Below are positions 10,065 through 62,183 of a DNA stretch of 64,000 bases, in pieces (the stretch's first letter is position 1; each line of letters starts with the position of its first letter). Source of the DNA: Streptomyces sp. B21-105 (GTDB taxonomy: Bacteria; Actinomycetota; Actinomycetes; Streptomycetales; Streptomycetaceae). Both the position numbers and the translations under genes were made by a program. The DNA lies in contig NZ_JARUMJ010000001.1 of assembly GCF_036898465.1 (NCBI RefSeq), positions 8,742,001-8,806,000 of the forward strand, in the 5' to 3' direction. Below the pieces are notes generated by a model. The model saw only the letters and a list, made by a program, of their open reading frames with translations. It did no database searches and was not told where the DNA came from.

Positions 10065-12149
10065 GTGAGGGAGAACACGACGCGGTCAGCCGTCCTGCCG
10101 GTGGCCCCGAGCCGGGGCCGGCTGCGGCCACTGGGTCTCGACGAGGTCCGGATCACCGGGGGCTTCTGGGCCCGGCGCCGACAGATCAACCGGGCCGCGA
10201 CACTCGATCACTGCCGCGACTGGATGGAACGCGTCGGCTGGACCGGCAACTTCCGCGCCGCCGTCGAAGGCCGGATCCACCGGGACCGGCGCGGCCGCGA
10301 GTTCGCCGACTCCGACGTCTACAAACTGATCGAGGCCATGGCCTGGGAAGCCGGCCACGGCTCCGGCGCCGCCCTCGACGCGCAGATCGCCGCACTCACC
10401 GACACCATCGCCCCCGCCCAGGAACCGGACGGCTACCTCAACACCGCCTTCGGCCGTCCCGGTCAGCAACCCCGGTACAGCGACCTCGAATGGGGCCACG
10501 AGCTGTACTGCTACGGGCATCTGATCCAGGCGGGCGTGGCCCAGATGCGGGCCCGCGGCGAGGGCGAGCTGGCGAAGATCGCCCGGCGCGCCGCCGACCA
10601 CGTGTGCACGGCCTTCGGTCCCGGCGGCATCGAACGCGTCTGCGGACACCCGGAGATAGAGACGGCCCTGGTCGAACTGGCCCGGGCCACCGGCGAGCAG
10701 CGCTATCTCGACCAGGCCGCGCTGTTCGTCGACCGCCGCGGCCGGCACACCCTCGCGGAGACGGAGTTCGGCCGCGCCTACCACCAGGACGACGTGCCCG
10801 TCCGGGAGGCAACCGCGCTGCGCGGCCACGCCGTACGCGCCCTCTACCTCGCGGCCGGCGCCGTCGACGTGGCGGTGGAGACCGGCGACGACGCCCTGCT
10901 CACCGCCGTCGTCCGGCAGTGGGACGCCGCGGTCGCCCGGCGTACCTACCTCACCGGCGGCATGGGCTCCCACCACCGGGACGAGGCCTTCGGCGACGAC
11001 TTCGTGCTGCCCCCCGACCGCGCCTACTCGGAGACCTGCGCGGGCGTCGCCTCCGTGATGCTCAGCTGGCGGCTGCTGCTCGCCACCGGCGAACCGCGCT
11101 ACGCCGACCTCGCCGAGCGGACCCTGTTCAACGTGGTGGCGACCTCCCCGTCCGAGGACGGCCGGTCCTTCTTCTACGCCAACACCCTGCACCGACGCCG
11201 CCGCGGCACGGTGCCCGCCGCCGACGCGCAGAGCCCGCGCGCCGAATCGAGCCTGCGCGCCCCCTGGTTCGCGGTGTCCTGCTGTCCGACCAACGTGGCG
11301 CGGACCCTGGCCCTGCTGCCGGCCTACCTGGCGACGGCCGACGACGACGGCGTCCAACTGCACCAGTACGCCGACGCCGAGCTCGCCACCTCCCTCGCCG
11401 GCGGCCGGGACGTCGCCCTGCGCGTGCGCACCGACTACCCGTCCGGCGGCAGTGTGACCGTACGGATCGACAGGTCCCCGGAGCATCCCTGGACCCTGTC
11501 GCTGCGCGTGCCCGCATGGGCGGCGGGCGCCGATGCCGCACTGGTCGACCCGGACGGGGTGCGCCGTGCCGTCACGCCGGGCACGGCCGCCGTCACCCGG
11601 CGTTTTCGGCCCGGCGACGAGATACGGCTGGACCTGCCCGTGACCCCGCGGTGGATCGCGCCCGACCCCCGCATCGACGCCGTACGCGGCACCGCCGCCG
11701 TGCAGCGCGGGCCGCTCGTGTACTGCGCCGAGTCCGTCGACCTCCCGCCGGGGCACGAGGTCGACGCCGTCCGGGTGAACCCGTCCGTCCCACCGCAGGA
11801 CGGGCCGGAAGGCACCGTCGTGGCGTCCGGCGCGCTGGTCGCGGCGCCGGACGCACCGGCGGCGGAGTCCGGCAGGGCCGGGGAGGCGGTCGATCCCGCA
11901 GCCGCAGACACAGCCGGTCCCGCAGCAGCAGGCGCGGCCGCAGACACGGACCCGGACGGCGGCGGGCAGGCCGAGTCCGACGCCGACACGCGGTGGCCGT
12001 ACGCACCGCTGGAGGAGGCCGCCGCACCGGCCGGCGAGCGTGCCGACATCGTCCTCGTGCCCTACCACTCCTGGGCCAACCGCGGCCCCTCGACGATGCG
12101 CGTGTGGCTGCCGACGACGCGACCGCCGACCGAACCGCCCGGGAGGTAG
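10065..12149 (+). CDS. GH127 beta-L-arabinofuranosidase (DUF1680), cytoplasmic
   Basis: The product is 694 residues and has no signal peptide. GH127 catalytic landmarks match Bifidobacterium HypBA1: E307 in DEAFG, then E323 and C325 in SETC, 16-18 residues on as in HypBA1, and C406-C407 in SCCPTN. The zinc is held by the Glu and three Cys, and the first Cys of the pair (C406) is the expected nucleophile. The enzyme should release L-arabinose from imported beta-L-arabinofuranosides. The start is GTG 10065; the nearby ATG 10057 opens only a three-codon frame. An Ala/Asp/Gly-rich insert (about residues 600-655) near the C-terminus is unusual for the family. Confidence 0.9.
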   Translation: MRENTTRSAVLPVAPSRGRLRPLGLDEVRITGGFWARRRQINRAATLDHCRDWMERVGWTGNFRAAVEGRIHRDRRGREFADSDVYKLIEAMAWEAGHGSGAALDAQIAALTDTIAPAQEPDGYLNTAFGRPGQQPRYSDLEWGHELYCYGHLIQAGVAQMRARGEGELAKIARRAADHVCTAFGPGGIERVCGHPEIETALVELARATGEQRYLDQAALFVDRRGRHTLAETEFGRAYHQDDVPVREATALRGHAVRALYLAAGAVDVAVETGDDALLTAVVRQWDAAVARRTYLTGGMGSHHRDEAFGDDFVLPPDRAYSETCAGVASVMLSWRLLLATGEPRYADLAERTLFNVVATSPSEDGRSFFYANTLHRRRRGTVPAADAQSPRAESSLRAPWFAVSCCPTNVARTLALLPAYLATADDDGVQLHQYADAELATSLAGGRDVALRVRTDYPSGGSVTVRIDRSPEHPWTLSLRVPAWAAGADAALVDPDGVRRAVTPGTAAVTRRFRPGDEIRLDLPVTPRWIAPDPRIDAVRGTAAVQRGPLVYCAESVDLPPGHEVDAVRVNPSVPPQDGPEGTVVASGALVAAPDAPAAESGRAGEAVDPAAADTAGPAAAGAAADTDPDGGGQAESDADTRWPYAPLEEAAAPAGERADIVLVPYHSWANRGPSTMRVWLPTTRPPTEPPGR

Positions 12150-12333
12150 ACGTGCGCGGGCCGGGCACAGTCGTGCGCCGCGGGACCTGCCGCGCCGGCG
12201 CGCGACCCCGGCGCGCACCGAACCGGCGTCGGCACCGACACGACGCGCCCCCGTTCCCGGCGACCTCCGCGCCGGCCATGACGTCCCCACCGTCCGAACC
12301 GACCACCCACGCCCCCACGATGGGAGTCCGAGC

Positions 12334-14532
12334 ATGTCCCAACCCCCCTCTCGCCGCGGTCTGTTGAGACTGGCCGCCGGGACCGCCGCCGCGGCGCCGC
12401 TGCTGCACGCGACACCCGCGGCGGCCCGTACCGCCGCCCGGCCCGCCTCGGCGACGACCGCGTCCCACGCGCCCGTCGGCGGCATCGTCCCCGCGGCCGC
12501 CCCCACCGCGGCCCCGGCGCCCGTGCCGCCGACCTGGGCCGTCCAGCCCTTCGCCCTGGACCGGGTGACACTCGGCGACGGCCTCTTCCGGCGCAAGCGC
12601 GACCTGATGCTCGGCTACGCCCGGTCCTACCCGGCCGACCGGATCCTCGCCGTCTTCCGGGCCAACGCGGGGCTCGACACCCGCGGCGCCCGGCCACCGG
12701 GCGGCTGGGAGACCTCCGACGGCAATCTGCGAGGCCACTACGGGGGTCACTTCCTCACGCTCATCGCCCAGGCGTACGCCGACACCCGTGAGGCCGCGCT
12801 CAAGACCAAGCTCGACTACCTGGTGACCGCGCTGGGCGAGTGCCAGGCGGCGCTGGCCGACCACGGCTCGCCGAAGCCGAGTCACCCAGGCTTTCTGGCG
12901 GCCTACCCGGAGACCCAGTTCATCCTGCTGGAGAGCTACACGACCTACCCCACCATCTGGGCGCCCTACTACACCTGCCACAAGATCATGCGCGGGCTGC
13001 TCGACGCGCACACCCTGGCGGGGAACGCGCAGGCGCTGACCATCGCCTCGAAGATGGGCGACTGGGTGCACAGCCGCCTCGGCCGGCTGCCGAAGGCGCA
13101 GCTGGAGCGCATGTGGTCGATCTACATCGCCGGCGAGTACGGCGGGATGAACGAGGTGATGGCGGACCTGTACGCGCTCACCGGCCGGACCGAGCACCTC
13201 GCCGCCGCCCGCTGCTTCGACAACACCACCCTGCTGGACGCCTGCGCCGACGACCGGGACGTCCTGGACGGCCGGCACGCCAACCAGCACATCCCCCAGT
13301 TCACCGGGTACGTACGGCTCTTCGACCACACCGGTGAACAGGAGTACGCGGCCGCGGCACGCAACTTCTGGGGCATGGTCGTGGGTCCGCGCACCTACAG
13401 CCACGGAGGCGCCGGCAAAGGGGAGATCTTCCGGGCCCGCGGTGCGATCACGGCCACCCTCGGCGACGACAACGCCGAGACCTGCGCGACGTACAACATG
13501 CTCAAACTGAGCCGTCAGTTGTTCTTCCACGCGCCGGACGCCGCCTACATGGACTACTACGAGCGCGGCCTGACCAACCACATCCTGGCCTCCCGCCGGG
13601 ACACGTCCAGTACGACCAGCCCGGAGGTCACCTACTTCGTCGGCATGGGCCCGGGGACGGTGCGCCAGTACGACAACACCGGCACCTGCTGCGGCGGAAC
13701 CGGCATGGAGAACCACACCAAGTACCAGGACTCGGTGTACTTCCGCTCGGCCTTCGGGGACGCGCTGTACGTCAATCTCTACCTCGCCTCGACACTGCGG
13801 TGGCCGGAGCGGGGGCTGGTCCTGGAGCAGACGAGCGCCTACCCGGCCGAAGGCGTCCGCACGCTGACGTTCCGCGAGGGCGGCGGCGGCCTCGATCTGA
13901 AGCTCAGGGTCCCCTCCTGGGCCACGGCGGGCTTCACCGTCGCCGTGAACGGGGTCGCGCAGCAGGTGCAGGCGGTCCCCGGGAGTTACCTCACGCTGCG
14001 CAGGGAGTGGCGGCGCGGCGACCGGGTCACCGTCTCCGCGCCCTACCGTCTGCGCGTCGAACGGACGGGGGACGATCCGTCCGTGCAGTCGCTCTTCCAC
14101 GGGCCGGTCCTGCTGGTCGCGCGGAGTCAGGCGACGGACTTCCGGCAGTTCTCCTTCTACAAGGACTTCACGCTGCGGGGCGATCTGGCCGACGCGGTCC
14201 GCCCCGAGGGCCGTCCGCAGTACTTCACCACGCACGGGCTGACCCTGGCCCCGTTCCATGTCGCGGACGGCGCCCGCTACCACGCCTACTTCAGGCGCGT
14301 GGAGCCGGTCGTCGTCTTCGGCACGTCCGACTCGGGGGTGCCGAACCGCTCCCGCGGCGACGGCCTGACCTTCCTCGACGTCCTGTGGCAGCAGGCGCCG
14401 TTCGCGACCTCCGCCGAGTTCCTGGCGGCGGTGCGGTCCCTGGCCGACGTCTGGCAGGCCGAAGGCCGGTTCACGGGGGCCGAACGGGACCGCGTCGTCG
14501 CGGCCGCGACCGCCGCGAACCTGCGCCGCTGA
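12334..14532 (+). CDS. Tat-exported GH146-like beta-L-arabinofuranosidase (DUF1680 superfamily)
   Basis: The product is 732 residues with a twin-arginine signal (SRRGLLRLAAG, then an Ala-rich stretch to about residue 31). The zinc-thiolate signature reads E382-T-C384 in AETCATYNM and C452-C453 in GTCCGGTGMENH; E364 in KGEIF is a probable further active-site acid. The YNMLKL and CCxGTGxEN patterns fit the GH146 branch rather than GH127. It would act outside the cell while the upstream GH127 acts inside. ATG 12334 is preceded by GGGAG. The 184-base gap before it holds no visible terminator, so the two are probably cotranscribed. Confidence 0.87.
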   Translation: MSQPPSRRGLLRLAAGTAAAAPLLHATPAAARTAARPASATTASHAPVGGIVPAAAPTAAPAPVPPTWAVQPFALDRVTLGDGLFRRKRDLMLGYARSYPADRILAVFRANAGLDTRGARPPGGWETSDGNLRGHYGGHFLTLIAQAYADTREAALKTKLDYLVTALGECQAALADHGSPKPSHPGFLAAYPETQFILLESYTTYPTIWAPYYTCHKIMRGLLDAHTLAGNAQALTIASKMGDWVHSRLGRLPKAQLERMWSIYIAGEYGGMNEVMADLYALTGRTEHLAAARCFDNTTLLDACADDRDVLDGRHANQHIPQFTGYVRLFDHTGEQEYAAAARNFWGMVVGPRTYSHGGAGKGEIFRARGAITATLGDDNAETCATYNMLKLSRQLFFHAPDAAYMDYYERGLTNHILASRRDTSSTTSPEVTYFVGMGPGTVRQYDNTGTCCGGTGMENHTKYQDSVYFRSAFGDALYVNLYLASTLRWPERGLVLEQTSAYPAEGVRTLTFREGGGGLDLKLRVPSWATAGFTVAVNGVAQQVQAVPGSYLTLRREWRRGDRVTVSAPYRLRVERTGDDPSVQSLFHGPVLLVARSQATDFRQFSFYKDFTLRGDLADAVRPEGRPQYFTTHGLTLAPFHVADGARYHAYFRRVEPVVVFGTSDSGVPNRSRGDGLTFLDVLWQQAPFATSAEFLAAVRSLADVWQAEGRFTGAERDRVVAAATAANLRR

Positions 14533-15943: not shown

Positions 15944-17839
15944 CTACGTCTCGCCGTCCACGTCCCCTCGCGGCGGTGCGGGCTCCTGCAGGAGAGGCAG
16001 GGCGTCGAGGTACTCGGGCGGGTGGTCGAACGCCCGGGTCAGGGTGCCGAGTCGGGGCTGGAGACTGTGGGTGAGGGCGTCGACGGCGGCCGGGAACCCG
16101 TGCACGTGCTGCGGTTCGATGTGGCCGTCGGCGAGGAGTATGCCGGTGTGCGGGGCGAGGTGGGTGAGCAGGTACAGCGAGGTGACCTCGGTGAGGAGGC
16201 GGCGGGCCGGCTCGTGGGTGGCGCCGGCCAGGGCGGCGAGGAGGGCGTCCGCGGCCTGCAGCCTGATGTGGGTCTGAGCCTTCAGCAGGGCGGGAGCGGA
16301 CGCGGTGTTCCAGCGGGCCTGCGGGTCGTGCGAGGGCCCGTGGCGCAGGGCCAGGTGTGCCTGGTCGTGGAAGGCCTGTTCGGCGCGGGCGAGCAGGTCG
16401 CGCAGGTGATGGGGGTCGGTGAGGACCGGCGGGCCGGCGTCGGGGGCCGGCCGGGTCGGCGGGTGGTGGAGCAGTTCCGCGGCCGCCTTGGTGGTGATGA
16501 GGAGGTTGTCGCCCTCCGCCGTGATGGTCCCCTCGATGTAGTCGGAGAAGCCGGCGAGGTGGTTCGCGGGGAGCAGCCCCTGCGCGCCGCAGCGCTCCCG
16601 CGCCTCGAGCGCGATGGTGCGCGCCTCCCAGGTGATCCAGGCCTTGGCGAGCGCGATGAGACGTTCGAGGTGGGTACGGTCCGCGGTGTCGGAGCTGTTC
16701 CATCGCGCGGTGAGCGAGCGGTGCAGCAGTGTCATCGCGTAGACGGTCGCGACGCCCTGGAGCAGCCTGCTGTGGTGGGTGCGATGCGTGTTGATGGGCA
16801 GCCGCTGACCGGGCCGGGCTCCGCTGACGTGCCGCTGGTCGCCGTAGCGTACGGCGATGGCCAGTGCCGCGCGTGAGGCGCCGACGGCCGCGGCGCTCAT
16901 GCACAGCTTGCCGACGGTGACCCGGGAGATGGAGGTGAGGAACCGTTTGCGGCGGTTGCCGAGGCTGCTGGTGAGGACGCCGTCGGGACCCAGTCGTCCG
17001 TGGTCGCCCTGGAGGAGGGCCCGGCGCGGCAGGGGGAGGTGGTCGAAGGAGGTGAGGCAGTGGTCGACGGGGGCGTTGGGACGCAAGGGGAGCGGCGTGA
17101 CGGTGATGTGGGGGAGCGGCCCGTCATGGTCGGTGAGCGGGGTCAGGAAGAGGAACACCCCGTGGTCGCGGTCCCCGACGAGGAGGCGTGCGGCGACCAC
17201 GGCGCTCTTGGGGCCGCCCAGCGAGCTGGTGTTGGGCATGAACTTGGCGGCGCCGGGGTGCGGGGTGTGCAGGAGGAACCCACCGGTCTCGGGGTCGAGA
17301 CGAGCGGTGGTCTCGAGCGCGAAGGCGTCGTTGCCGTGGTCGACCTCGGTGCACAGGAAGGTTCCGGTGCGTCGCAGCGCCGTGAACTCGGTCAGGTCCC
17401 TCGACGGTTCGTCGTCGTGGTCGAGGAGGCTGCCGAGGAAGAGGTTGTAGTGGATGCTGGCGACGGTGGTGAGGCCGCCGCCCCCGTCGACGATGGCGGC
17501 CCACTCGTGCAGCGCGGTGAGCAGGGCGGGGTCGGTCGCGAGTGACGCGGGGTCGGCCAGCAGGTCGTTGACCAGACGCAGCCAGGCGTAGGACTGGGCG
17601 GCCCGCTCCTCGGGGGTGACGCCGGGCCGGTGACGGAAGTCGTCCCGGGCGATGAGACGGCGCCACGGGGTGTGCACGCGCTCCCGTTCGCCGTCCTGGT
17701 CGAACAGCAGCCGGGTCAGCTCGCGGACGGTCGCCGCGTCGCCGGGACCGGGGCCGTCGGCCGCGCCGGGGAGGGGGCGGGGATCACTGCGGTGCGGCCC
17801 TGCGGGGCGCTCTGCGCCGTGGAATGCCAGAAGCGCCAT
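15944..17839 (-). CDS. aco: Acyl-CoA oxidase, probable butenolide (avenolide-type) hormone biosynthesis enzyme
   Basis: The product is 631 residues of acyl-CoA oxidase/dehydrogenase fold. Recognisable parts are a substrate/FAD region (GTFLCTEVDHGNDAFALETTA, about residues 190-210), FMPNTSSLGGPKSAVVAA and a C-terminal helical domain (GAQGLLPANHLAGFSDYIEGT). It starts at ATG 17839 behind GGGGAG, and lies divergent from a butyrolactone-receptor homologue with a P450 further on. In S. avermitilis the oxidase Aco and the P450 Cyp17, linked to AvaR receptors, make avenolide. The same gene set here supports that role, although lone acyl-CoA oxidases can also serve ordinary lipid breakdown. Confidence 0.82.
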   Translation of the reverse strand: MALLAFHGAERPAGPHRSDPRPLPGAADGPGPGDAATVRELTRLLFDQDGERERVHTPWRRLIARDDFRHRPGVTPEERAAQSYAWLRLVNDLLADPASLATDPALLTALHEWAAIVDGGGGLTTVASIHYNLFLGSLLDHDDEPSRDLTEFTALRRTGTFLCTEVDHGNDAFALETTARLDPETGGFLLHTPHPGAAKFMPNTSSLGGPKSAVVAARLLVGDRDHGVFLFLTPLTDHDGPLPHITVTPLPLRPNAPVDHCLTSFDHLPLPRRALLQGDHGRLGPDGVLTSSLGNRRKRFLTSISRVTVGKLCMSAAAVGASRAALAIAVRYGDQRHVSGARPGQRLPINTHRTHHSRLLQGVATVYAMTLLHRSLTARWNSSDTADRTHLERLIALAKAWITWEARTIALEARERCGAQGLLPANHLAGFSDYIEGTITAEGDNLLITTKAAAELLHHPPTRPAPDAGPPVLTDPHHLRDLLARAEQAFHDQAHLALRHGPSHDPQARWNTASAPALLKAQTHIRLQAADALLAALAGATHEPARRLLTEVTSLYLLTHLAPHTGILLADGHIEPQHVHGFPAAVDALTHSLQPRLGTLTRAFDHPPEYLDALPLLQEPAPPRGDVDGET

Positions 17840-17898
17840 GACCACTCCCCGTTGTCGCGGATCCGCACACTGGTACGTCTGGTTGCGCCGTCCGCAAA

Positions 17899-17922
17899 AA
17901 GATACGGACCTACCGGTTTTCT
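17899..17922. promoter_or_regulatory. Candidate autoregulatory element (receptor-binding site) upstream of aco
   Basis: Half-sites ATACGG (17902-17907) and CGGTTT (17914-17919) are separated by 6 bases. The known ScbR/ArpA-type consensus is AWACCG-N6-CGGTTT, so only one of twelve positions differs. It lies 60 bases upstream of the oxidase start in the 339-base divergent region 17840-18178. Closer to the receptor gene, CGGTAT (18131-18136) could be the right half of a weaker second site. The rest of the region shows nothing else. Confidence 0.55.
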
Positions 17923-18178
17923 CATCAAGTCGGAAACCGGCAATCCGACCGGCCGCCGATGGCGTGTTTTGAGGGGTGGGTGGCCGGGGGAGCGCGCTCG
18001 TGGGGGGCGGGGCGAACTCACCGTGCAGGTCCGGCCGTTGTGGGTTCGAGGGCCGCGCAGGACGGATTGTCGGCCGGGCGCGGGTGCGGCGGTGGACAGG
18101 TGGTGGCGAGGTGGCAGCAGTCAGACCTGTCGGTATATTTTCGAGCCGGATTCGCCGGAGCTACCTCGGAGGTGGAGC

Positions 18179-18862
18179 GTGGCGCTGCAGGAACGGGCCG
18201 TCCGGACGAGGCGGGCCGTCCTCGTCGCGGCCGCGGCGGTGTTCGCCGAGGTGGGGTACGAGGCTGCGACGATCTCTGAGATCCTCGCCCGGGCCGGCGT
18301 GACCAAGGGGGCGCTCTACTTCCACTTCTCCTCCAAGGAAGAGCTTGCGCAGGCCGTGCTGGCCAGCCAGCTGGACGCCGTCCCGGCCGTGCCCGCACGG
18401 GAGTTGCTGCTGCAGCAGGGGCTGGACGAGGCGTTCGTCCTGGCGCATCTGCTGTCGGTGGGCGATCCGCTGGTCCAGGGAAGCATCAGACTGACCGTGG
18501 ACCAGGGGGCGCCGACGGACGGGCTGGACCGGCGCGCGCCGATGAACGGCTGGATCGCGCACAACGCGGATCTGCTGGGGCGGGCGAAGGAGCGCGGCGA
18601 ACTGCTGCCGCACGTCGATGTGGCGGCCGCCGCGCGGATGTTCGTGGGCGCGTTCACCGGGGTCCAGGTGCTCTCCAAGATCATGACGGGGCACGCGGAC
18701 CTGCCGGAGCGAGTGGCGGACCTTCAGCGGCATCTGCTGGCCGGGGTCGCCGTGCCGGCCGTCCTGTTGCAGCTGGACACGTCCGCCGACCGGGGCGCCC
18801 GAGTGTACGAGGAGGCCGCGCAGGCCAGTTGGCCGACGGGGCAGCCCCGGGCCGCCGGATGA
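18179..18862 (+). CDS. avaR1: Gamma-butyrolactone/butenolide receptor, TetR superfamily (ArpA/ScbR/AvaR1-like)
   Basis: The product is 227 residues. The DNA-binding domain reads [17 protein letters not shown]...[25 protein letters not shown], where GALYFHF is the receptor-family recognition helix. Ligand-domain signatures include [32 protein letters not shown] and [20 protein letters not shown], all characteristic of true receptors. GTG 18179 follows GGAGG. The protein should bind autoregulatory elements and let go when it binds the hormone. The symbol is by analogy with the S. avermitilis gene next to aco; it could equally be a ScbR-type receptor. Confidence 0.85.
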
Positions 18863-19097
18863 CCGGTGCCGCCCGGTCCCGGTGAGGGCCGTCCGGCGGG
18901 GCGGGCGTGAGCGGGTGGGCTCCGGTAGGGCAGGCGCATGCGGGACGGTGGTTGAGGGCGGGGCGGCAGGGGGAGGGGTCCGGGCGAACGGTTGTCCAAG
19001 GGTGTGGTCCCGCGTCCCCGGCCGAGAGGTGGGGCAGCGCCCCTGTCTTCCGACCACGCGTATGCCCACAGTGCAGGACCGACCCCGGGAGTTCGAG

Positions 19098-20333
19098 ATG
19101 GATACGAAGGCCTGCCCCTACGCCCTGGACGTGACCGGGCGCGATCTCGCCGGCGAGGCGGCGATGCTCCGGGCCGAAGGCCCGGCCGTGCGGGTGGAGT
19201 TGCCCGGGGGTGTGATCGCCTGGGCGGTGCTGCGGCAGCGCGAGGTGGAGCGGCTGCTGACCGATCCCCGGGTGTCGAAGGACGCCCGCCGGCACTGGCC
19301 GGAGCTGATCGAGGGGCGCATCACCGAGGAGTGGCCGCTGTACCCCTGGGTGATCAACGAGAACATGCTCTTCGCCTACGGCGCCTCGCACACCCGGCTG
19401 CGCCGGCTGGTGGCGGGGGCGTTCACCACGCGGCGTTCGGAGGCCATGCGGCCACGGGTGGCGCAGATCGCGGCCGAACTCGTCGACGGGCTCGCGGCGA
19501 ACCGGCCGGGGGAGCCCGTGGACCTGCGAACCTCGTTCGCGGAGCTGCTGCCGATGCGGGTGATCTGCGAACTGTTCGGGGTGGCGCAGGGCGAGGACAC
19601 CGACGCCCTGTGCGCGGCCCTGCACACGGTCTTCGGGACGACGATCAGCGGCCGGGAGATCGAGGCGGCCCGTCTGGAGGCCTTCGTACGGCTGTCGGAA
19701 CTGGTGAAGGCCAAGCGCGCCGAACCGGGCGACGACCTCACGTCGTTGCTGATCCAGGCCCGTGACCAGGAGGACCGGCTCACCGAGGAGGAGCTGCTGG
19801 GCACCCTCTTCCTCATGATCGCCGGCGGGCAGGACACCACGGCCGCCCTGATCACCAACGCGGTCGGCGCGCTGCTGCGGTGGCCCGAGCAGCTGGAGCA
19901 CGTCCGGACCGGCCGGGCGACCTGGCAGGACGTGGCCGCCGAGACCATGCGGGTCCACACCCCCGGGGCCTACTCGCCGATGAGGTTCGCCGTCGAGGAC
20001 ATCGATCTCGACGGCGTGCTGATCCGCAAGGGCGAGGCCATCCTCGTCAACTTCGCGGCGGGGGGCCGGGATCCGGAACGCTACGGGCCGCACGCCGAGC
20101 GGTTCGACGTCCTGCGCAAGGACCGCGACGGCCTCGGCTTCGGCCACGGGCCGCACCGCTGCCTGGGGGCGCCGCTGGCGGCAGTGGAGGCGGAGAGCGC
20201 CTTCGCCGCGCTCTTCGAGCGCTTCCCCCGTATGGAACTCGCCTGCGCGCCGGACGAACTCCTGCCGTTGCCCAGCTTCCTGATGAACAGTTACCGATCG
20301 CTTCCCGTCCGGCTCGCTCCCGGCCAGGCCTGA
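19098..20333 (+). CDS. cyp17: Cytochrome P450, probable hormone hydroxylase (Cyp17-like)
   Basis: The product is 411 residues of bacterial class I P450. The I-helix motif AGGQDTT lies at 242-248, the K-helix ExxR in ETMRVH, and the heme loop [12 protein letters not shown] contains the ligand C355. ATG 19098 with GGGAG is chosen over ATG 19062, which adds 12 residues with no ribosome site. It lies between the two receptor genes and needs ferredoxin partners encoded elsewhere. In avenolide synthesis Cyp17 hydroxylates the fatty-acid-derived chain at C-10; the assignment rests on gene order and not on a sequence feature unique to Cyp17. Confidence 0.83.
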
Positions 20334-20393
20334 ACCGGACATCGTCCCTTCGGTGTCGACGGCCGACGGGCAGGGGCCGTGGGCCGTGGGCCG

Positions 20394-20418
20394 AAGATAC
20401 CGAACGCACGGTTTACTT
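20394..20418. promoter_or_regulatory. Candidate autoregulatory element upstream of the second receptor gene
   Basis: ATACCG (20397-20402), 6 bases, then CGGTTT (20409-20414) match the receptor-site consensus AWACCG-N6-CGGTTT at all positions. The flanks AG and ACTT keep the wider pattern. It sits about 90 bases upstream of ATG 20508, so the gene is likely under receptor control. Confidence 0.65.
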
Positions 20419-20507
20419 CGGCGGCGCTCCGGTGGGATGCTCTCCCCGTTTTGCCGGACGCAGGACGCGGACCCCCGTCGTCCATGCAGGCTGGGGAGGA
20501 AGACCTG

Positions 20508-21143
20508 ATGGTCAAGCAGGCTCGGGCGGTCCGCACCCGCCAGGCCCTTGTCCTGGCGGCGGCCGAGGTGTTCGCCGCCGAGGGGTACGCCGGAGCGTCC
20601 CTGCCCGCCATCAGCGAACGGGCGGGGGTGAGCAACGGCGCCCTGCATTTTCACTTCGCCAGCAAGCACGACCTGGCGTCGGAGGTGGAGAGAGCGGCGG
20701 CGGACGGTGCGCAGCGCCTCGCGGAACGGTGCCGCGGCCGTGCCGACACGTTGCTGCAGTCGCTCGCGCACACGGCTTGCGGACTGCTGCTGGCGGTGGT
20801 CGCCGACCCCGTGATCCGGGCGGGGTTCCGGCTGAGCGGTGATCCCTCGCGCAAGGACGGAACGCGGCTGCTGCGCTGGTGGCAGGCGTGGGTGCGCGAG
20901 CTCGTCGCGCAGGCGCAGCGCGAGGGGGAACTCGCGCGGGGCGTCTCGGCCGACGTGGCGACGACCGTGATCGTGGCCGCGACGGCGGGCTTCGAGGTGA
21001 TGGGGGCGGCGGACCGCGACATGCTCTCCGTGGAGCGCGTGACGCAGCTGTGGACGTTCGTCATGCCCCGGCTGGCGGACTCGCCGGACCACGCCACGAC
21101 GACACCGCAACCGCGGACGCCGAGGGAGCAGCCGGTCGACTGA
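20508..21143 (+). CDS. Second butyrolactone-receptor homologue (TetR superfamily, pseudo-receptor-like)
   Basis: The product is 211 residues. Its N-terminal HTH parallels the first receptor (QARAVRTRQALVLAAAEVFAAEG; AISERAGVSNGALHFHFASKHDL) with GALHFHF in place of GALYFHF. The ligand domain keeps GELARGVSADVATTVIVAATAGFEVM and the Trp-rich RLLRWWQAWVREL but lacks LLPH. Such relatives (AvaR2, ScbR2, BarB class) often bind antibiotics or nothing and act as late regulators. ATG 20508 follows GGGGAGGAAG. Whether it responds to the hormone cannot be read from sequence. Confidence 0.83.
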   Translation: MVKQARAVRTRQALVLAAAEVFAAEGYAGASLPAISERAGVSNGALHFHFASKHDLASEVERAAADGAQRLAERCRGRADTLLQSLAHTACGLLLAVVADPVIRAGFRLSGDPSRKDGTRLLRWWQAWVRELVAQAQREGELARGVSADVATTVIVAATAGFEVMGAADRDMLSVERVTQLWTFVMPRLADSPDHATTTPQPRTPREQPVD

Positions 21144-43321: not shown

Positions 43322-44839
43322 TCACAGCGACTGGGCGAGACGGTGGTAGGCCGCGTTCCAGCGGACTTCCTTGGCGAACTGGTCGGTGCGGGTGTTCTCG
43401 TCGATGGTGAGGAGCTCGACGCCGGTCATGGCGGCGTAGTCGGTCAGGGTCTCCACGCTCACGGCCGAGCTGAGCACGGTGTGGTGCGGGGCGCCGGCGA
43501 GCAGCCAGCTCTCCGCGGACTCGGCGAGCGAGGGGCGGGGCTCCCACACGGCACGGGCCACCGGCAGGCGGCGCAGCGGCTCGCTCGGGGAGATGACGTC
43601 GACGACGTTCGCGGTCAGCCGGAACCGGTCGCCGAGGTCGGAGAGACCGACGACGACGGCCGGGCCCTCGGCGGCGTCGAAGACCAGGCGGACGGGGTCC
43701 TCGCGGCCGCCGATGGAGAGGGGGTGGATCTCGGCGCTGGGGCGGCCGGCGGCGATGGAGGGGCACACCTCGAGCATGTGGGCGCCGAGCACGCACGGCT
43801 TGCCGGGGCCGAGGTGGTAGGTGTAGTCCTCCATGAAGCTGGTGCCGCCGGGGCTGCCGGCGCCCATGACCTTCACCGTGCGCAGCAGGGCCGAGGTCTT
43901 CCAGTCGCCCTCGCCGCCGAAGCCGTAACCGTCGGCCATGAGGCGCTGGCAGGCGATGCCGGGCAGCTGGCGCAGGCCGCCGAGGTCCTCGAAGTTGGTG
44001 GTGAAGGCGGTGAAGCCGCCCTCGGTGAGGAAGGCGCGCAGGCCGGCTTCGATGCGGGCCGCGTACAGCAGGGAGTCGTGCTGGTCGCCGCCCGGGCGCA
44101 GGGCCTCGGCGACGTCGTAGGAGTCGGTGTACTCGGCGGCGAGTTCGGCGACGTCCTTGTCCGACACGGCGTCGACGACGGCGACGAGGTCGTTGACGCC
44201 GTAGGTGTTGACGGAGAACCCGAACCGCAGCTGGGCCTCGACCTTGTCGCCCTCGGTGACGGCGACGTCACGCATGTTGTCGCCGAAGCGGGCCAGCCGC
44301 AGGGTGCGGGCGGTGTGGCGGCCGACGGCGGCGCGGGCCCAGGCGGCGACGCGGCCCACGACGCGGGGGTCGGTGGCGTGACCGGCGACGATCTTGCGGT
44401 CGACGCCGACGCGGGACTCGATGTGGCCGAACTCGCGGTCGCCGTGGGCGGCCTGGTTGAGGTTCATGAAGTCCATGTCGATGCTGGGCCAGGGCAGCGA
44501 CAGGTTGTACTGGGTGTGCAGGTGCAGCAGCGGCCGGTCGAGGGCGCTGAGTCCGGCGATCCACATCTTGGCGGGGGAGAAGGTGTGCATCCACACGATC
44601 ACGCCCACACAGGTGTCGGAGGCCGAGGCCTCCTGGCACATCCGCCGGATCGCGTCGGCGTCGGTCAGGACCGGCTTCCACACGATCCGGACCGGGATCT
44701 CGCCCGGGTGACCCAGCGTCTCGGAGATGCTCCGGGACTGCTCGGCCACCTGCTGCAGCACGTCGTCGCCGTACAGGCCCTGGCTGCCGGTGAGAAACCA
44801 GACCTCGTGGTCGGGGTAGGGCGTGGCGTTGGCTTCCAT
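43322..44839 (-). CDS. araA: L-arabinose isomerase
   Basis: The product is 505 residues, close to the usual 500. It isomerises L-arabinose to L-ribulose in the cytoplasm using a manganese ion. Recognisable segments are [16 protein letters not shown] at the N-terminus, [31 protein letters not shown] and the metal-binding region [14 protein letters not shown]...FMEDYTYHL, where the two Glu residues act in catalysis. AAAGGAAA precedes ATG 44839. It lies 76 bases after araB. Confidence 0.96.
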
Positions 44840-44915
44840 GTCGGACGTTTCCTTTCGGGAATGATGACCACAGATCAGAAGGCGGTGACGTTCACCGCGC
44901 AGGGGGACGACGGGT

Positions 44916-46610
44916 TCAGACGGATGCCTCGGCCCGGATACGGCGCAGACGGTGCATGACCTCGTTGGCGCCGCGTCCGAAGTAGTCGTGAAGCTCCCGG
45001 TACTCGGCGAACAGGCGGTCGTAGGCCGCCGCCCGCTCGGGGTCGGGCTGGTAGACCGCCGGACGGGCCTTGCCCATGGCGTGGGCGGCGGCCCTGATGT
45101 CCGGGTACGAGCCGGCCGCGACCGCCGCGTGCATGGCCGCGCCGAGGGCCGGTCCCTGCGTCGAGTCGATGACGCCGAGGGGCAGGCGGGTGACGTCGGA
45201 GTAGATCTGCATCAGCAGCGCGTTCTTCGTCAGACCGCCCGCGATGATCAGCTCGCGCACCGGCACGCCGGAGTTCTCGAAGGCCTCGATGATGGTGCGG
45301 GTGCCGAAGGCGGTGGCCTCCAGCAGCGCCCGGTAGACGTCCTCGGGACGGGTGGACAGCGTCAGGCCCACGATGATGCCGCTGAGGTCGTGGTCGACCA
45401 GGACGGAGCGGTTGCCGCTCTGCCAGTCCAGTGCGATCAGTCCGTGCTCGCCGATCTTCTGCTCGGCCGCGAGCGCGGTGAGGTGCTGGTGCGCGTCGCG
45501 TCCCAGCGCGGCCGCCTCCTCGGCGTACGACGCCGGGAAGCCGGTGCGCACGAACCAGCCGAAGATGTCGCCGACGCCGCTCTGCCCGGCCTCGTAGCCC
45601 CACAGGCCCGGCAGGATGCCGCCGTCGACGACGCCGCACATGCCCGGCACCTCGGCCCACTGGTCGGAGCTCATGACGTGGCAGGTGGAGGTGCCCATGA
45701 TGGCCACCATCCGGCCCGGCTCCACCGCGGTCGCGGCGGGCGCCGTCACGTGTGCGTCGACGTTGCCGACGCACACGGCGATGCCCTCGGGCAGGCCCGT
45801 CCAGGCCGCCGCCTCGGCGGTCAGCCGCCCCGCCAGATCGCCGAGCTGCCCGATCGGGTGCTCCAGCTTGGTCGTCACGAAGTCGGCGAAGTCGGGGTTG
45901 AGCGCCGCGAGGTACTCCGGCGACGGGTAGACGCCGTCCTGCAGCTGGCCCTTGTAGCCGGCGGTGCAGGCGTTGCGGACGTAGGTGCCGGACAGCTGCC
46001 AGACGATCCAGTCCGCGGCCTCCACCCAGCGCTCGGTGCGGGCGTAGATCTCCGGGTCCTCCTCGAGGAGCTGCAGCGCCTTCGCGAACTCCCACTCCGA
46101 GGAGATCTTGCCGCCGTAGCGCTTGATCCACGGCTCCTTGCGCTCGGCGGCCAGCGCCGTGATGCGGTCGGCCTGGGCCTGGGCGGCGTGGTGACGCCAC
46201 AGCTTGACGTAGGCGTGCGGACGGCCGGCGAGCTCCGGCAGCTCGCACAGGGGGGTGCCGTCGGCGAGCGTCGGCACCATCGTGCACGCGGTGAAGTCCG
46301 TGCCGATCCCCACCACCTGCTCGGGGCGGACTCCCGAGCGGGCCAGCGCCTCGGGCACCGCGATGCGCAGGACGTCGATGTAGTCGCTGGGCACCTGCAG
46401 CGCCCAGTCCGGCGGCAGCGAGGTCCCGTCGGGCAGCTCCCGGTCGAGCACGGCGTGCGTGTACGCGTGCTCGGACGCGGCGAGCTCGGCGCCGTCGGAG
46501 ACCCGGACCACCACGGCCCGCCCGGACAGCGTGCCGTAGTCGACTCCGATGACATAGGTGTCGGGACGGGACTCTTCCCCGCGCTCGTCCTGGATCTCGG
46601 CGTTCACCAC
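44916..46610 (-). CDS. araB: Ribulokinase
   Basis: The product is 564 residues of the FGGY carbohydrate kinase family. It phosphorylates L-ribulose with ATP. Visible motifs are [21 protein letters not shown] (phosphate-binding loop), [23 protein letters not shown], and the C-terminal ATP-site motif [20 protein letters not shown]. The start is at GTG 46610 or GTG 46607, with only a weak ribosome site. It heads the leftward araB-araA-araD operon. Confidence 0.95.
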
Positions 46611-58185: not shown

Positions 58186-60372
58186 TCAGAGGTCGTCGCC
58201 GAGATCGTGCCCGAGGTCGTCCGACAGCCGCTTCACCAGGTCGTACGCGGCGTCCGGGATCACCGTGCCGGGCGGGAAGACGGCGGCGGCGCCCATCTCC
58301 AGGAGCGTGGGCACGTCCTGCGGCGGGATGACGCCGCCGACGACGATCATGATGTCCTCGCGTCCTTCTTCGGCGAGCTGCTCGCGCAGCGCCGGCACCA
58401 GCGTGAGGTGTCCGGCGGCCAGCGACGACACCCCGACGATGTGCACGTCGGCCTCGACGGCCTGACGGGCCACCTCGCCCGGGGTCTGGAACAGCGGGCC
58501 GACGTCGACGTCGAAGCCGAGGTCGGCGAAGGCGGTGGCGATGACCTTCTGGCCGCGGTCGTGCCCGTCCTGGCCCATCTTGGCGACCAGGATGCGCGGC
58601 CGCCGCCCCTCGGACTCCTCGAACGCGGACACGAGGCCGCGGGTGCGGTCCACGGACGGCGACTCCCCTGCTTCGTTGCGGTACACGCCGGAGATCGTAC
58701 GGATCTGGCTCGCATGCCGGCCGTACACCTTCTCCAGGGCGTCGGAGATCTCGCCGACGGTGGCCTTCGCCCGGGCCGCGTCGACGGCCAGCTCCAGCAG
58801 GTTGCCCTCGCCGCCCGCGGCCCGGGTCAGCGCGTCCAGGGCGGCCCGGCACGCGACGTCGTCCCGCTCCTCGCGCAGCCGGCGCAGCTTCTCGATCTGC
58901 TGGGCGCGCACGGACGAGTTGTCGACCTTGAGGACGTCGATCTGCTCGTCGCTGTCGACGCGGTACTTGTTGACGCCGATCACCGGCTGGCGCCCGGAGT
59001 CGATACGGGCCTGCGTGCGCGCGGCGGCCTCCTCGATGCGCAGCTTGGGGATGCCGGCGTCGATGGCCTTGGCCATGCCGCCCGCGGCCTCGACCTCCTC
59101 GATGTGCTGCCAGGCCCGGCGCGCGAGGTCGTACGTCAGCCTTTCCACGTAGGCGCTGCCGCCCCACGGGTCGATCACCCGCGTGGTGCCGGACTCCTGC
59201 TGGATCAGCAGCTGCGTGTTGCGGGCGATGCGCGCCGAGAAGTCGGTCGGCAGCGCGAGCGCCTCGTCGAGGGCGTTGGTGTGCAGCGACTGCGTGTGGC
59301 CCTGCGTCGCCGCCATCGCCTCGACGCAGGTGCGCGTGACGTTGTTGAAGACGTCCTGCGCGGTCAGCGACCAGCCCGAGGTCTGCGAATGGGTGCGCAG
59401 CGACAGCGACTTGCTGTTCTGCGGGTCGAACTGCTTCACCAGTTTCGCCCACAGCAGGCGCGCCGCCCGCAGCTTGGCGACCTCCATGAAGAAGTTCATG
59501 CCGATCGCCCAGAAGAACGACAGCCGCGGCGCGAACGCGTCGACGTCCAGGCCCGCTGCACGGCCCGCCCGGATGTACTCCACGCCGTCCGCGAGCGTGT
59601 ATGCCAGCTCCAGGTCGGCCGTCGCGCCCGCCTCCTGGATGTGGTAGCCGGAGATGGAGATGGAGTTATAGCGGGGCATCCGCTGCGAGGTGTAGGCGAA
59701 GATGTCGGAGATGATCCGCATCGACGGCTTCGGCGGATAGATGTAGGTGTTGCGGACCATGAACTCCTTGAGGATGTCGTTCTGGATGGTCCCGGCCAGC
59801 TTCTCGGGCGGCACGCCCTGTTCCTCGGCGGCGACGATGTACAGCGCGAGCACGGGCAGCACCGCGCCGTTCATCGTCATCGACACGGTCATCCTGTCCA
59901 GCGGGATGCCGTCGAACAGCTGCCGCATGTCGTAGATCGAGTCGATCGCCACCCCGGCCATGCCGACGTCGCCGGTCACCCGCGGGTGGTCGCTGTCGTA
60001 GCCGCGGTGCGTCGGCAGGTCGAACGCGACCGACAGGCCCTTCTGGCCGGCCGCGAGGTTGCGGCGGTAGAAGGCGTTGGACTCCTCGGCGGTGGAGAAG
60101 CCGGCGTACTGGCGGATCGTCCACGGCTGGTTGACGTACATCGTCGGGTACGGGCCGCGCAGGTAAGGGGCGACGCCCGGGTAGGTGTCCAGGAAGTCCA
60201 GGCCCTCCAGGTCCTGGCCGGTGTACAGCGGCTTGACGGTGATGCCCTCGGGCGTCTCCCACAGCAGGTCGTCCCCGCCCGCCGCCCTCTTCACGGCCGT
60301 GCGCCACTCGTCGGCGCCGGCGTCGGCGGCCGGGGTCCCCAGTTCGATCCCGGTGAAGTCGGGGATTGCCAT
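58186..60372 (-). CDS. mutB: Methylmalonyl-CoA mutase, large catalytic subunit
   Basis: The product is 728 residues. The TIM-barrel substrate domain ([37 protein letters not shown]) is followed by the C-terminal cobalamin domain with the cofactor ligand H604 in GQDGHDRG. It interconverts succinyl-CoA and (R)-methylmalonyl-CoA, feeding polyketide precursors or propionate catabolism. Its start ATG shares one base with the mutA stop (TGATG), so the two subunits are coupled. Confidence 0.96.
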
Positions 60373-62183
60373 CAGGACACAGCTCCCATGCGGTCAAGGG
60401 TGGCGGACAGCACGGCGACGGCGTCGCAGCCCGCGAAGACGTACGCGTCGACCCCGGGGTACTGCCCGGGACGTCCGGCGAGGAACACGTGCGAGGCGCC
60501 GGCGGCCCGCAGCCGGGCCGCCTCCGACTCGGCCTGCTCTTCGTACAGGGCGTCACTCGAGCACAGGCAGACCTCCGTGGCGCCGCTGTCCTCGAACGGG
60601 CCCTCGGTGACGGGCTCGACGCCGCCGGCCTGGAACAGGTTCGCGGCGAAGGTCAGCCGGGCGGTGTGCGCGGCGGCCGGACCGAGCGCCGCCAGGTAGA
60701 TCCGCGGCCGGGAGCCGGTCGCCGCGAGGTGGGCGTCCGAGCGCGCCCGCAGCGCCTCGTACGCCTCGTCGCGGCGCACCCGCGGCAGACCGCCGGAGCG
60801 TGGTTCGGGGGCGCTCTCGCGCAGCACCGGCTTCTCCGCGAGGAACGGGAACTCGCTGACCCCGGTGACGGGTTCGCGCCGCGTGGCGAGCCGGCCGCTG
60901 CGCGCCCGCCAGGTGTCGGCGAGGTCCTCCGCGAGGCGTCCCGAGCGCAGCACGGCCGCCTGGCCGCCGCCGCGCTCGATCCCCTGGAAGAACTCCCAGC
61001 CCGCGTGGGCCAGTTCGTCCGTCAGCCGTTCCACGTACCAGGAGCCGCCCGCCGGGTCGACGACCCGGGACAGGTGCGACTCCTCGATGAGGATGGTGGA
61101 GGTGTTGCGCGCGATGCGCCGCGCGAACGCGTCGGGCAGGCCGAGCGCGTGGTCGAAGGACAGCACGGTGACGGAGTCCGCTCCGCCCGCCCCCGCGGCC
61201 AGCGTGGCGATGGTGGTGCGCAGCATGTTCACCCACGGGTCGCGGCGCGACATCATCACCGGCGAGGTCACCACGTGCTGGATCTGCGCGCCGGCGCCGG
61301 GCGCCCCGGACACCTCGGCGACCCGGGCCCACAGCCGGCGGGCCGCCCGCAGCTTGGCGATCGTGAGGAACTGGTCGGCGGTCGCCGCGTAGCGGAACTC
61401 CAGCTGCCCGCAGGCCTGTTCCACGCTCAGCCCGGCCTCGGTCAGCTCCCGCAGGTAGCCGACGCCGGTGGCCAGCGAGGCGCCCAGTTCCTGCGCGGCG
61501 CTGCCGCCGGCCTCGTGGTACGGCAGCGCGTCCACGGTGAGCGCCCGCAGTTGCGGATACTCCTTTGCGCACAGCCGCGCGAGTTCGGCGGCCGCGGCGA
61601 ACGCGACCGGCCGCCCGGTGCGGGCCTCGTGACCGAGGGGATCGGCGCCGAGATTGCCGCGCGCCGCGTCCTTCGCGACGCCCCGCTCCGCGAACAGCCG
61701 CAGCAACTCCCGTGCGGCGGGCCCGACCTGGTCGCCCGCGTCGAGGACGACCGGCGCCAGGTCGAGAAGCACACCGTCCAGGACCCGGTCGAGGGACGAC
61801 ACCGGGATGCCGCCTTCGCCGGCCACCAGCCACAGGGAGGTGACGCCGTTCTCCAGGTCCGCGAGCACGGCGCGGTCGTCGTCCGCCGTGTGCCGCTGCC
61901 GTACGTCCCAGCCCCCGACGGCATTTCCCTCGGGCCGGCTGCCGCGCACGAAGGGCGCGAAACCGGGGTGACCGTGCTCGGGCGCGGCGTCGCGCGCGGT
62001 GTAGAGGGGGCGGGTGCGCAACCCGTCCTCGAGGGCGGTGGACAGGGCTTCCTCGGCCTGAGCGCCCTCGACGTCCTTGCCCGACTTGCGCAGCACGCCT
62101 GTGATGAGGCGCTGCCACTGCTCGTGGGTGGCGTCAGGGAACTCGCCGGCCAGCTGGAGCCCGTCGTCAGGCAGGACCGTCAT
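60372..62183 (-). CDS. mutA: Methylmalonyl-CoA mutase, small subunit
   Basis: The product is 603 residues, the noncatalytic partner with the same barrel fold. It lacks the DxHxxG cobalamin motif in its C-terminal domain ([30 protein letters not shown]), as the family does. Barrel segments [30 protein letters not shown] are well kept. TAGCAT lies 6 bases before ATG 62183 with no ribosome site, so translation is probably leaderless. It heads the operon. Confidence 0.94.

Follow-up and report, generated by a model that had tools for sequence, protein, structure and literature searches.

Gene content of the locus

We analyzed a 64,000-nucleotide stretch of the Streptomyces sp. B21-105 genome (contig NZ_JARUMJ010000001.1, positions 8,742,001 to 8,806,000), hereafter the window, in which positions 15944-21143 hold a putative locus for the synthesis and sensing of an avenolide-like butenolide hormone. 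The six-frame list of this interval contains four intact frames, named here aco, R1, P450, and R2, with aco on the minus strand and divergent from the other three genes, all of which lie on the plus strand. Gene starts (17839, 18179, 19098, and 20508) were picked from ribosome-site-like stretches upstream. The aco gene (15944-17839, minus strand; ATG at 17839, 631 aa) encodes an acyl-CoA oxidase of the Aco kind, a putative butenolide synthase; its frame in the six-frame list (15944-17845, minus strand) begins at a GTG 6 nt before the chosen ATG. R1 (18179-18862, plus strand; GTG start behind GGAGG, 227 aa) encodes a putative AvaR1-type butenolide receptor/repressor, followed by a Cyp17-type, CYP154-like cytochrome P450 (19098-20333, plus strand; ATG, 411 aa) and by R2 (20508-21143, plus strand; ATG, 211 aa), a second ScbR-family regulator and probably a pseudo-receptor.

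The Pfam domains above cut-offs were ACOX_C_alpha1 and ACOX in the aco product, TetR_N in R1, p450 in the P450, and TetR_N in R2, and the NCBIfam model of the ScbR autoregulator-binding family scored 194.2 bits for R1 and 176.1 bits for R2 (cut-off 150). The intact frames and the domain assignments thus agree with an earlier sequence-only reading of this DNA, which had described an oxidase, two TetR-type receptors, and a P450 within 5.2 kb, the oxidase being divergent. The ScbR cut-off was passed at one further place in the genome, C1:7377417, approximately 1.4 Mb away; this candidate was rejected as a part of the hormone system, its product being CprB-like (E=5.9e-100 to CprB).

Conservation of the locus in Streptomyces

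Related loci from named strains were taken as the best 80 of 558 found with AvaR1 and R1. An Aco match lies beside the receptor in 20 of these 80 loci and a P450 match as well in 19 (L007 has no P450 match), and all 20 aco-bearing loci are among the 22 nearest to the query (L001-L022). Five other named loci carry a more distant P450 (46-48% identity) and no aco. Nine strains with aco loci, namely NEAU-SSA 1, Ru72, WAC05374, SW4, 1-11, CB02400, Act143, S. europaeiscabiei 96-14, and BK340, are present in the published table; the list comprises 90 putative butenolide strains (PMC7347384). At the level of the genus, an AvaR1 match at E<=1e-60 was obtained in 58 of 392 genomes, and aco was found within the 1.5-kb flank in 26 of the 30 loci returned from those 58 genomes (L093-L122). 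Some of these unnamed loci repeat named ones (L094 = L001, L116 = L013), so that the counts of intergenic gaps and pocket residues include repeats, whereas the operator matrix and the receptor tree described below count distinct operators and distinct receptors, respectively. No near-100% match to AvaR1 was found among the best 80 named loci, the 392 genus genomes, and 120 relatives of genome G244; S. glomeratus (L001), with a receptor 88% identical to AvaR1, was used as a stand-in for S. avermitilis.

The nearest relative of the locus, that of S. alanosinicus JCM 4714 (L020), has the same gene order, with 83% identity for R1, 81% for the P450, 65% for R2, and 60% for Aco. It differs in that its R2 is followed by a gene of the SARP type, with a BTAD domain, and by one with a polyketide-cyclase domain (L020:13329-15200), which may be what the hormone controls in that strain. 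Two other relatives show a reduced or disrupted gene set. In S. corallincola (L022:10001-11448), R1- and R2-like genes lie under ARE-like sites (ARE, autoregulatory element) with no aco and a nearby P450 of only 33% identity, an orphan receptor pair. In Streptomyces sp. SW4 (L009:7774-12036), the aco and P450 matches fall into several overlapping pieces that indicate frameshifts, due to either decay or sequencing error.

The receptor R1 and the second regulator R2

R1 is 66% identical to AvaR1 of S. avermitilis (sequence taken from PDB), and AvaR1 is also its best PDB match (6wp7, E=3.1e-88). The published ligand site of AvaR1 comprises Gln64, Ala85, Leu88, Thr108, Trp127, His130, Thr131, Val158, Phe161, Thr162, and Gln165, of which Thr131 touches the C10 hydroxyl of avenolide, and Gln64, Thr108, and Trp127 are conserved in all 90 receptors of the same study (PMC7347384). 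R1 retains all of these residues, including the three conserved ones, except for Thr131, which is replaced by Asn. Among 42 distinct receptors linked to an aco gene (AvaR1 and R1 included), Q64, T108, W127, F161, and Q165 are invariant and T162 is present in 41, whereas position 131 is variable (N in 20, T in 17, S in 3, G in 1, and I in 1). In a maximum likelihood tree of these 42 receptors and four receptors with no aco link, calculated with column 131 left out, the aco-linked receptors form one side of a branch supported at 100/99. Within it, R1 pairs with the S. alanosinicus receptor at 100/98, and AvaR1 falls in an S. glomeratus-like group.

R2 is 35% identical to AvaR1 and carries A, S, T, A, and E at the pocket positions Q64, T108, F161, T162, and Q165, respectively; its isoelectric point is 7.9 versus 5.86 for R1. 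The loss of five pocket residues in a regulator whose gene nevertheless has an ARE in front fits a pseudo-receptor, and R2 may be of the ScbR2/AvaR2 kind.

The acyl-CoA oxidase and the cytochrome P450

The Aco protein aligns with peroxisomal acyl-CoA oxidases and is 53-63% identical to the Aco proteins adjoining AvaR1-type receptors in the named loci. The Glu residue aligned with what we take to be the catalytic base position of ACOX1 is kept in all 20 aligned Aco proteins, that of the window included (the Aco of L009, matched in pieces, was omitted from the alignment). A search of the own genome with Aco returned only Aco itself at E<=0.001 (32/32 candidates scored). The AfsA family PF03756 had no match in this genome (21/21 candidates scored), whereas the same search gave a match in 334 of the 384 genus genomes covered. 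The lack of an AfsA-type synthase claimed for the window by the sequence-only reading therefore extends to the whole genome, and since no AfsA gene was found, Aco is the sole AfsA- or Aco-type autoregulator synthase seen there.

The P450 is CYP154-like, with CYP154A1 as the best PDB match, and what we take to be the heme-ligand motif and the I-helix motif (AGGQDTT) are in place. When the own genome was searched with the P450 of S. glomeratus, the enzyme of the window ranked first of 17 matches (67% identity vs 51% for the next) and was the reciprocal best hit. The reciprocal comparison with S. avermitilis proteins proposed earlier was thus carried out in part, with AvaR1 itself (66% to R1) and with the S. 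glomeratus P450. A tree was built from 38 P450s comprising 22 aco-linked enzymes, four own-genome paralogues, and 12 unlinked enzymes, with the S. avermitilis Cyp17 itself left out. The 22 aco-linked P450s, including that of the window, form one branch (100/99) apart from the paralogues and the unlinked enzymes; the grouping with unrelated enzymes that would have spoken for another function was not seen. All 13 P450s of the sub-branch containing the enzyme of the window lie beside N131 receptors, compared to two of the nine aco-linked P450s elsewhere in the tree; among these nine, three enzymes of the S. glomeratus-like group accompany T131 receptors.

The nearest own-genome paralogues of the P450 are encoded at C1:472196 (L152:7199-8404; 48% identity) and C1:927866 (L153:6869-8077; 43-44%). 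Each belongs to an operon-like group that also encodes another P450, a histidine-kinase-like ATPase, and a protein of the Roadblock or GTP-binding type, a make-up that is presumably that of the Streptomyces conservons, and the avenolide P450 may have originated in a conservon-type P450 family.

Predicted operators and the genomic neighborhood

The S. avermitilis aco operator (acoARE), the sequence of which is printed in PMC7347384, was compared with the entire window in both orientations. The best match, at 25 of 34 positions, is located upstream of aco (17896-17929, plus strand; core 17899-17921), and the next best match had 19/34. Matches of at least 20/34 to acoARE were present in 44 of 47 aco-receptor gaps (the own copy and repeated loci counted), and the gaps of L013, L016, and L116, representing two independent strains, have no recognizable aco ARE. 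A positional matrix was built from acoARE and 34 distinct sites of the relatives, the window copy being left out; its sites were chosen by the 20/34 threshold (34 of 36 distinct sites passed and two were dropped), so they lean towards acoARE, and the core of the S. alanosinicus site is identical to that of the window. With this matrix, the aco site scored 40.2 and a second predicted ARE upstream of R2 (20394-20416, plus strand) scored 16.8, compared to less than 3 for the rest of the window; the highest score in ten shuffles was 11.9. R1 is preceded by half an ARE (18116-18138, plus strand) with the right half kept and the left half degenerate, which was placed by eye against the S. alanosinicus sequence and is below matrix detection (<3). 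A site scoring >20 is present at this position in 11 of 22 near relatives, including S. alanosinicus, which differs from the window in having a full ARE in front of R1. In S. avermitilis, avaR1 is likewise preceded by a half ARE, with a full one further upstream (PMC5744401).

An independent search was made with the exact 18-bp consensus published for AvaR1 and AvaR2 (PMC5744401). It gave five sites in the 9.2-Mb genome (one with the reversed control), two of which are those upstream of aco (17902-17919, minus strand) and R2 (20397-20414, minus strand). The other three lie inside a predicted frame (L146), in a gap approximately 283 nt before a frame that by eye resembles an OrfB-type transposase (L147), and where a small frame begins that by eye resembles a helix-turn-helix protein (L148); they were not counted as probable targets. 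Two further searches used a mismatch pattern and a sequence profile that were built with the sites of the window and thus find these by construction. The pattern with up to three mismatches gave 31 sites genome-wide (two with no mismatch, both in the locus, one with two, and 28 with three; 17 for the reversed control), and the profile at E<=10 returned just the two locus sites (aco, E=7.7e-4; R2, E=3.3; 150/4812 candidates scored). No strong ARE outside the locus was found by the pattern, exact consensus, and profile searches of the genome, which would overlook divergent operators such as that at aveR. Within 39 kb, the pattern has five near-identical chance matches, four of them identical (C1:143418-182020; L129-L133), which are probably repeated modules or repeated sequence.

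The neighboring genes scanned in the window encode two GH127 arabinofuranosidase-like proteins, a flavin adenine dinucleotide-dependent oxidoreductase, an ion exchanger, and a PucR-type regulator, and these sampled flanking genes do not constitute a biosynthetic cluster. The GH127 genes are in tandem (10065-14532), with genes for L-arabinose isomerase and an FGGY kinase approximately 30 kb further on (43322-46610), so the hormone locus is set in an arabinose-use region. Two adjoining genes for methylmalonyl-CoA mutase subunits are found on the minus strand at 58186-62183. As no further strong ARE was found and the sampled flanks are non-biosynthetic, the role of a switch for silent secondary metabolism, which the sequence-only reading had assigned to the locus, rests on analogy and gained no support from the operator searches.

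A proposed Aco/Cyp17/AvaR1-type butenolide system

The genes, pocket residues, and operators described above, the conserved gene order, and the finding of no AfsA gene argue strongly for an Aco/Cyp17/AvaR1-type butenolide autoregulator locus, very probably with an avenolide-like product and with repression and release by R1. The locus clearly joins the known butenolide family as a further member and does not represent a novel type of system. By analogy with studied relatives, R1 would bind the ARE upstream of aco, and that upstream of R2, and thereby repress these genes. Aco would desaturate an acyl-CoA precursor and the P450 would hydroxylate its tail, yielding an avenolide-like gamma-butenolide. 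Once its level exceeds a threshold, the butenolide would bind R1 and remove it from DNA, and aco and R2 would be derepressed, together with the P450 if it is co-transcribed with R1, which is plausible given that the two genes share a strand and that 235 nt separate R1 from the P450 start. R2 would then serve as a second brake or a modulator. The avenolide-type assignment of the sequence-only reading is thus supported by receptor identity and pocket, operators, P450 tree and reciprocal hit, gene order, and the lack of a detected AfsA gene; this support does not extend to avenolide itself, and the actual signal need not be that compound.

The closest functional model is the S. avermitilis avenolide locus (aco, avaR1, cyp17, avaR3, avaR2), where AvaR1 represses aco, avaR1, avaR2, avaR3, and aveR, cyp17 is co-transcribed with avaR1 (PMC5744401), and avenolide displaces AvaR1 from DNA (PMC7347384). 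Both loci place the genes for Aco, receptor, and P450 next to each other, include an additional receptor-like regulator gene, and have AREs upstream of aco and of an additional regulator gene. S. avermitilis differs in having two further regulators rather than one, Thr at receptor position 131, and an ARE at the distant activator aveR, whereas none was found at such an activator in the genome studied here. The extra 75 residues of AvaR3 (PMC5744401) have no room in the 211-aa R2. In S. cyaneogriseus, an Aco homologue (ScyA1), a receptor (ScyR1), and a Cyp17-like P450 are also encoded together, and a culture extract frees ScyR1 from the intergenic DNA in dependence on the aco homologue (PMC7670052). 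Along with the study of SnbU (PMC7554373), this indicates that other strains use homologous gene sets to produce a factor that releases the receptor. S. cyaneogriseus differs in that it also has an AfsA-type system and that ScyR1 is reported not to repress scyA1 (PMC7670052). Receptor, P450, and acyl-CoA oxidase genes are likewise together in S. fradiae (tylP, orf16, orf18) and S. pristinaespiralis (spbR, snbU, snbX) (PMC7554373, PMC7347384), although the tylP and spbR loci are inside antibiotic clusters, in contrast to the sampled neighbors in the window. In S. albus J1074, the Aco and Cyp17 orthologues XNR_2339/XNR_2340 are needed for avenolide-like butenolides, whereas the AvaR1 homologue XNR_4681 is encoded by a distant gene and is just 31% identical (PMC5575351).

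Several observations weigh against the proposed scheme. The T131N replacement alters the pocket of R1, the R2 site is not significant by the profile, and R1 has merely a half ARE where half of the near relatives have a full site. Moreover, the gaps lacking a recognizable site show that the aco operator is not universal, and the ScyR1 case implies that the direction of control varies among strains (PMC7670052).

Alternative explanations

The first alternative refines the proposed reading rather than replacing it: the hormone would be a distinct butenolide, with another tail or C10 state, and the receptor and the P450 would have diverged together. We regard it as possible, although on balance doubtful. 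The contact to the C10 hydroxyl in AvaR1 is Asn in R1 and in nearly half of the aco-linked receptors, the P450s of the same branch occur exclusively beside such receptors, and the orthologous enzymes of S. albus make avenolide-like compounds other than avenolide (PMC5575351). On the other hand, N131 needs just six changes on the receptor tree, so that shared descent is enough to explain its pairing with the P450 branch, and Asn is able to donate a hydrogen bond like Thr. We know of no N131 receptor that has an established ligand. The N131/P450 pairing is therefore a lead for a distinct ligand and not evidence of one. A fuller version, in which Asn131 and the CYP154-like P450 diverged together around a distinct butenolide, the locus is the only AfsA-/Aco-type system of the strain, and strict operators control just the locus, is offered as a speculative proposal about which we are skeptical.

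A second alternative is an orphan or silent locus, where the genes are kept and no signal is made, or R1 senses the butenolides of neighbors. The apparent decay of related loci, such as the receptor pair with no aco in S. corallincola and the fragmented matches in strain SW4, and the finding of no strong operator outside the locus in the genome searches are consistent with it. However, the four intact frames, the conserved aligned Glu of Aco, and the kept aco operator make it unlikely. A gamma-butyrolactone system, with R1 sensing a gamma-butyrolactone and the oxidase and P450 serving that compound or other metabolism, is very improbable. R1 is also near PDB entries 5xay (E=3.7e-86) and 5xaz (E=3.4e-86), whose depositors describe a gamma-butyrolactone receptor that we take to be TylP. 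Synthetic 1,4-butyrolactone was bound by S. pristinaespiralis receptors, although the authors of that study expect an avenolide-type ligand (PMC7554373); the tylP and spbR loci themselves appear in the published aco/P450 table (PMC7347384), and the genome search for the AfsA family gave no match. That an oxidase of lipid degradation, a P450 of antibiotic synthesis, and two TetR regulators are neighbors by chance is hardly credible despite the abundance of TetR genes (74 places matching the ScbR model at E<=0.001) and is already contradicted by the gene set conserved in 19 of the best 80 named loci, the exact AvaR1 consensus sites shared as operators, and the aco-linked P450 clade.

Implications

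Butenolide hormones are used in attempts to wake silent antibiotic genes. Apart from extending by one a family for which about 90 strains had been tabulated (PMC7347384), the intact locus, set in a genome with no detectable AfsA gene, offers a clean setting for testing butenolide control with no gamma-butyrolactone background. The Asn131/P450 pattern makes the matching of the receptor pocket to the tail hydroxylase testable in this butenolide family.

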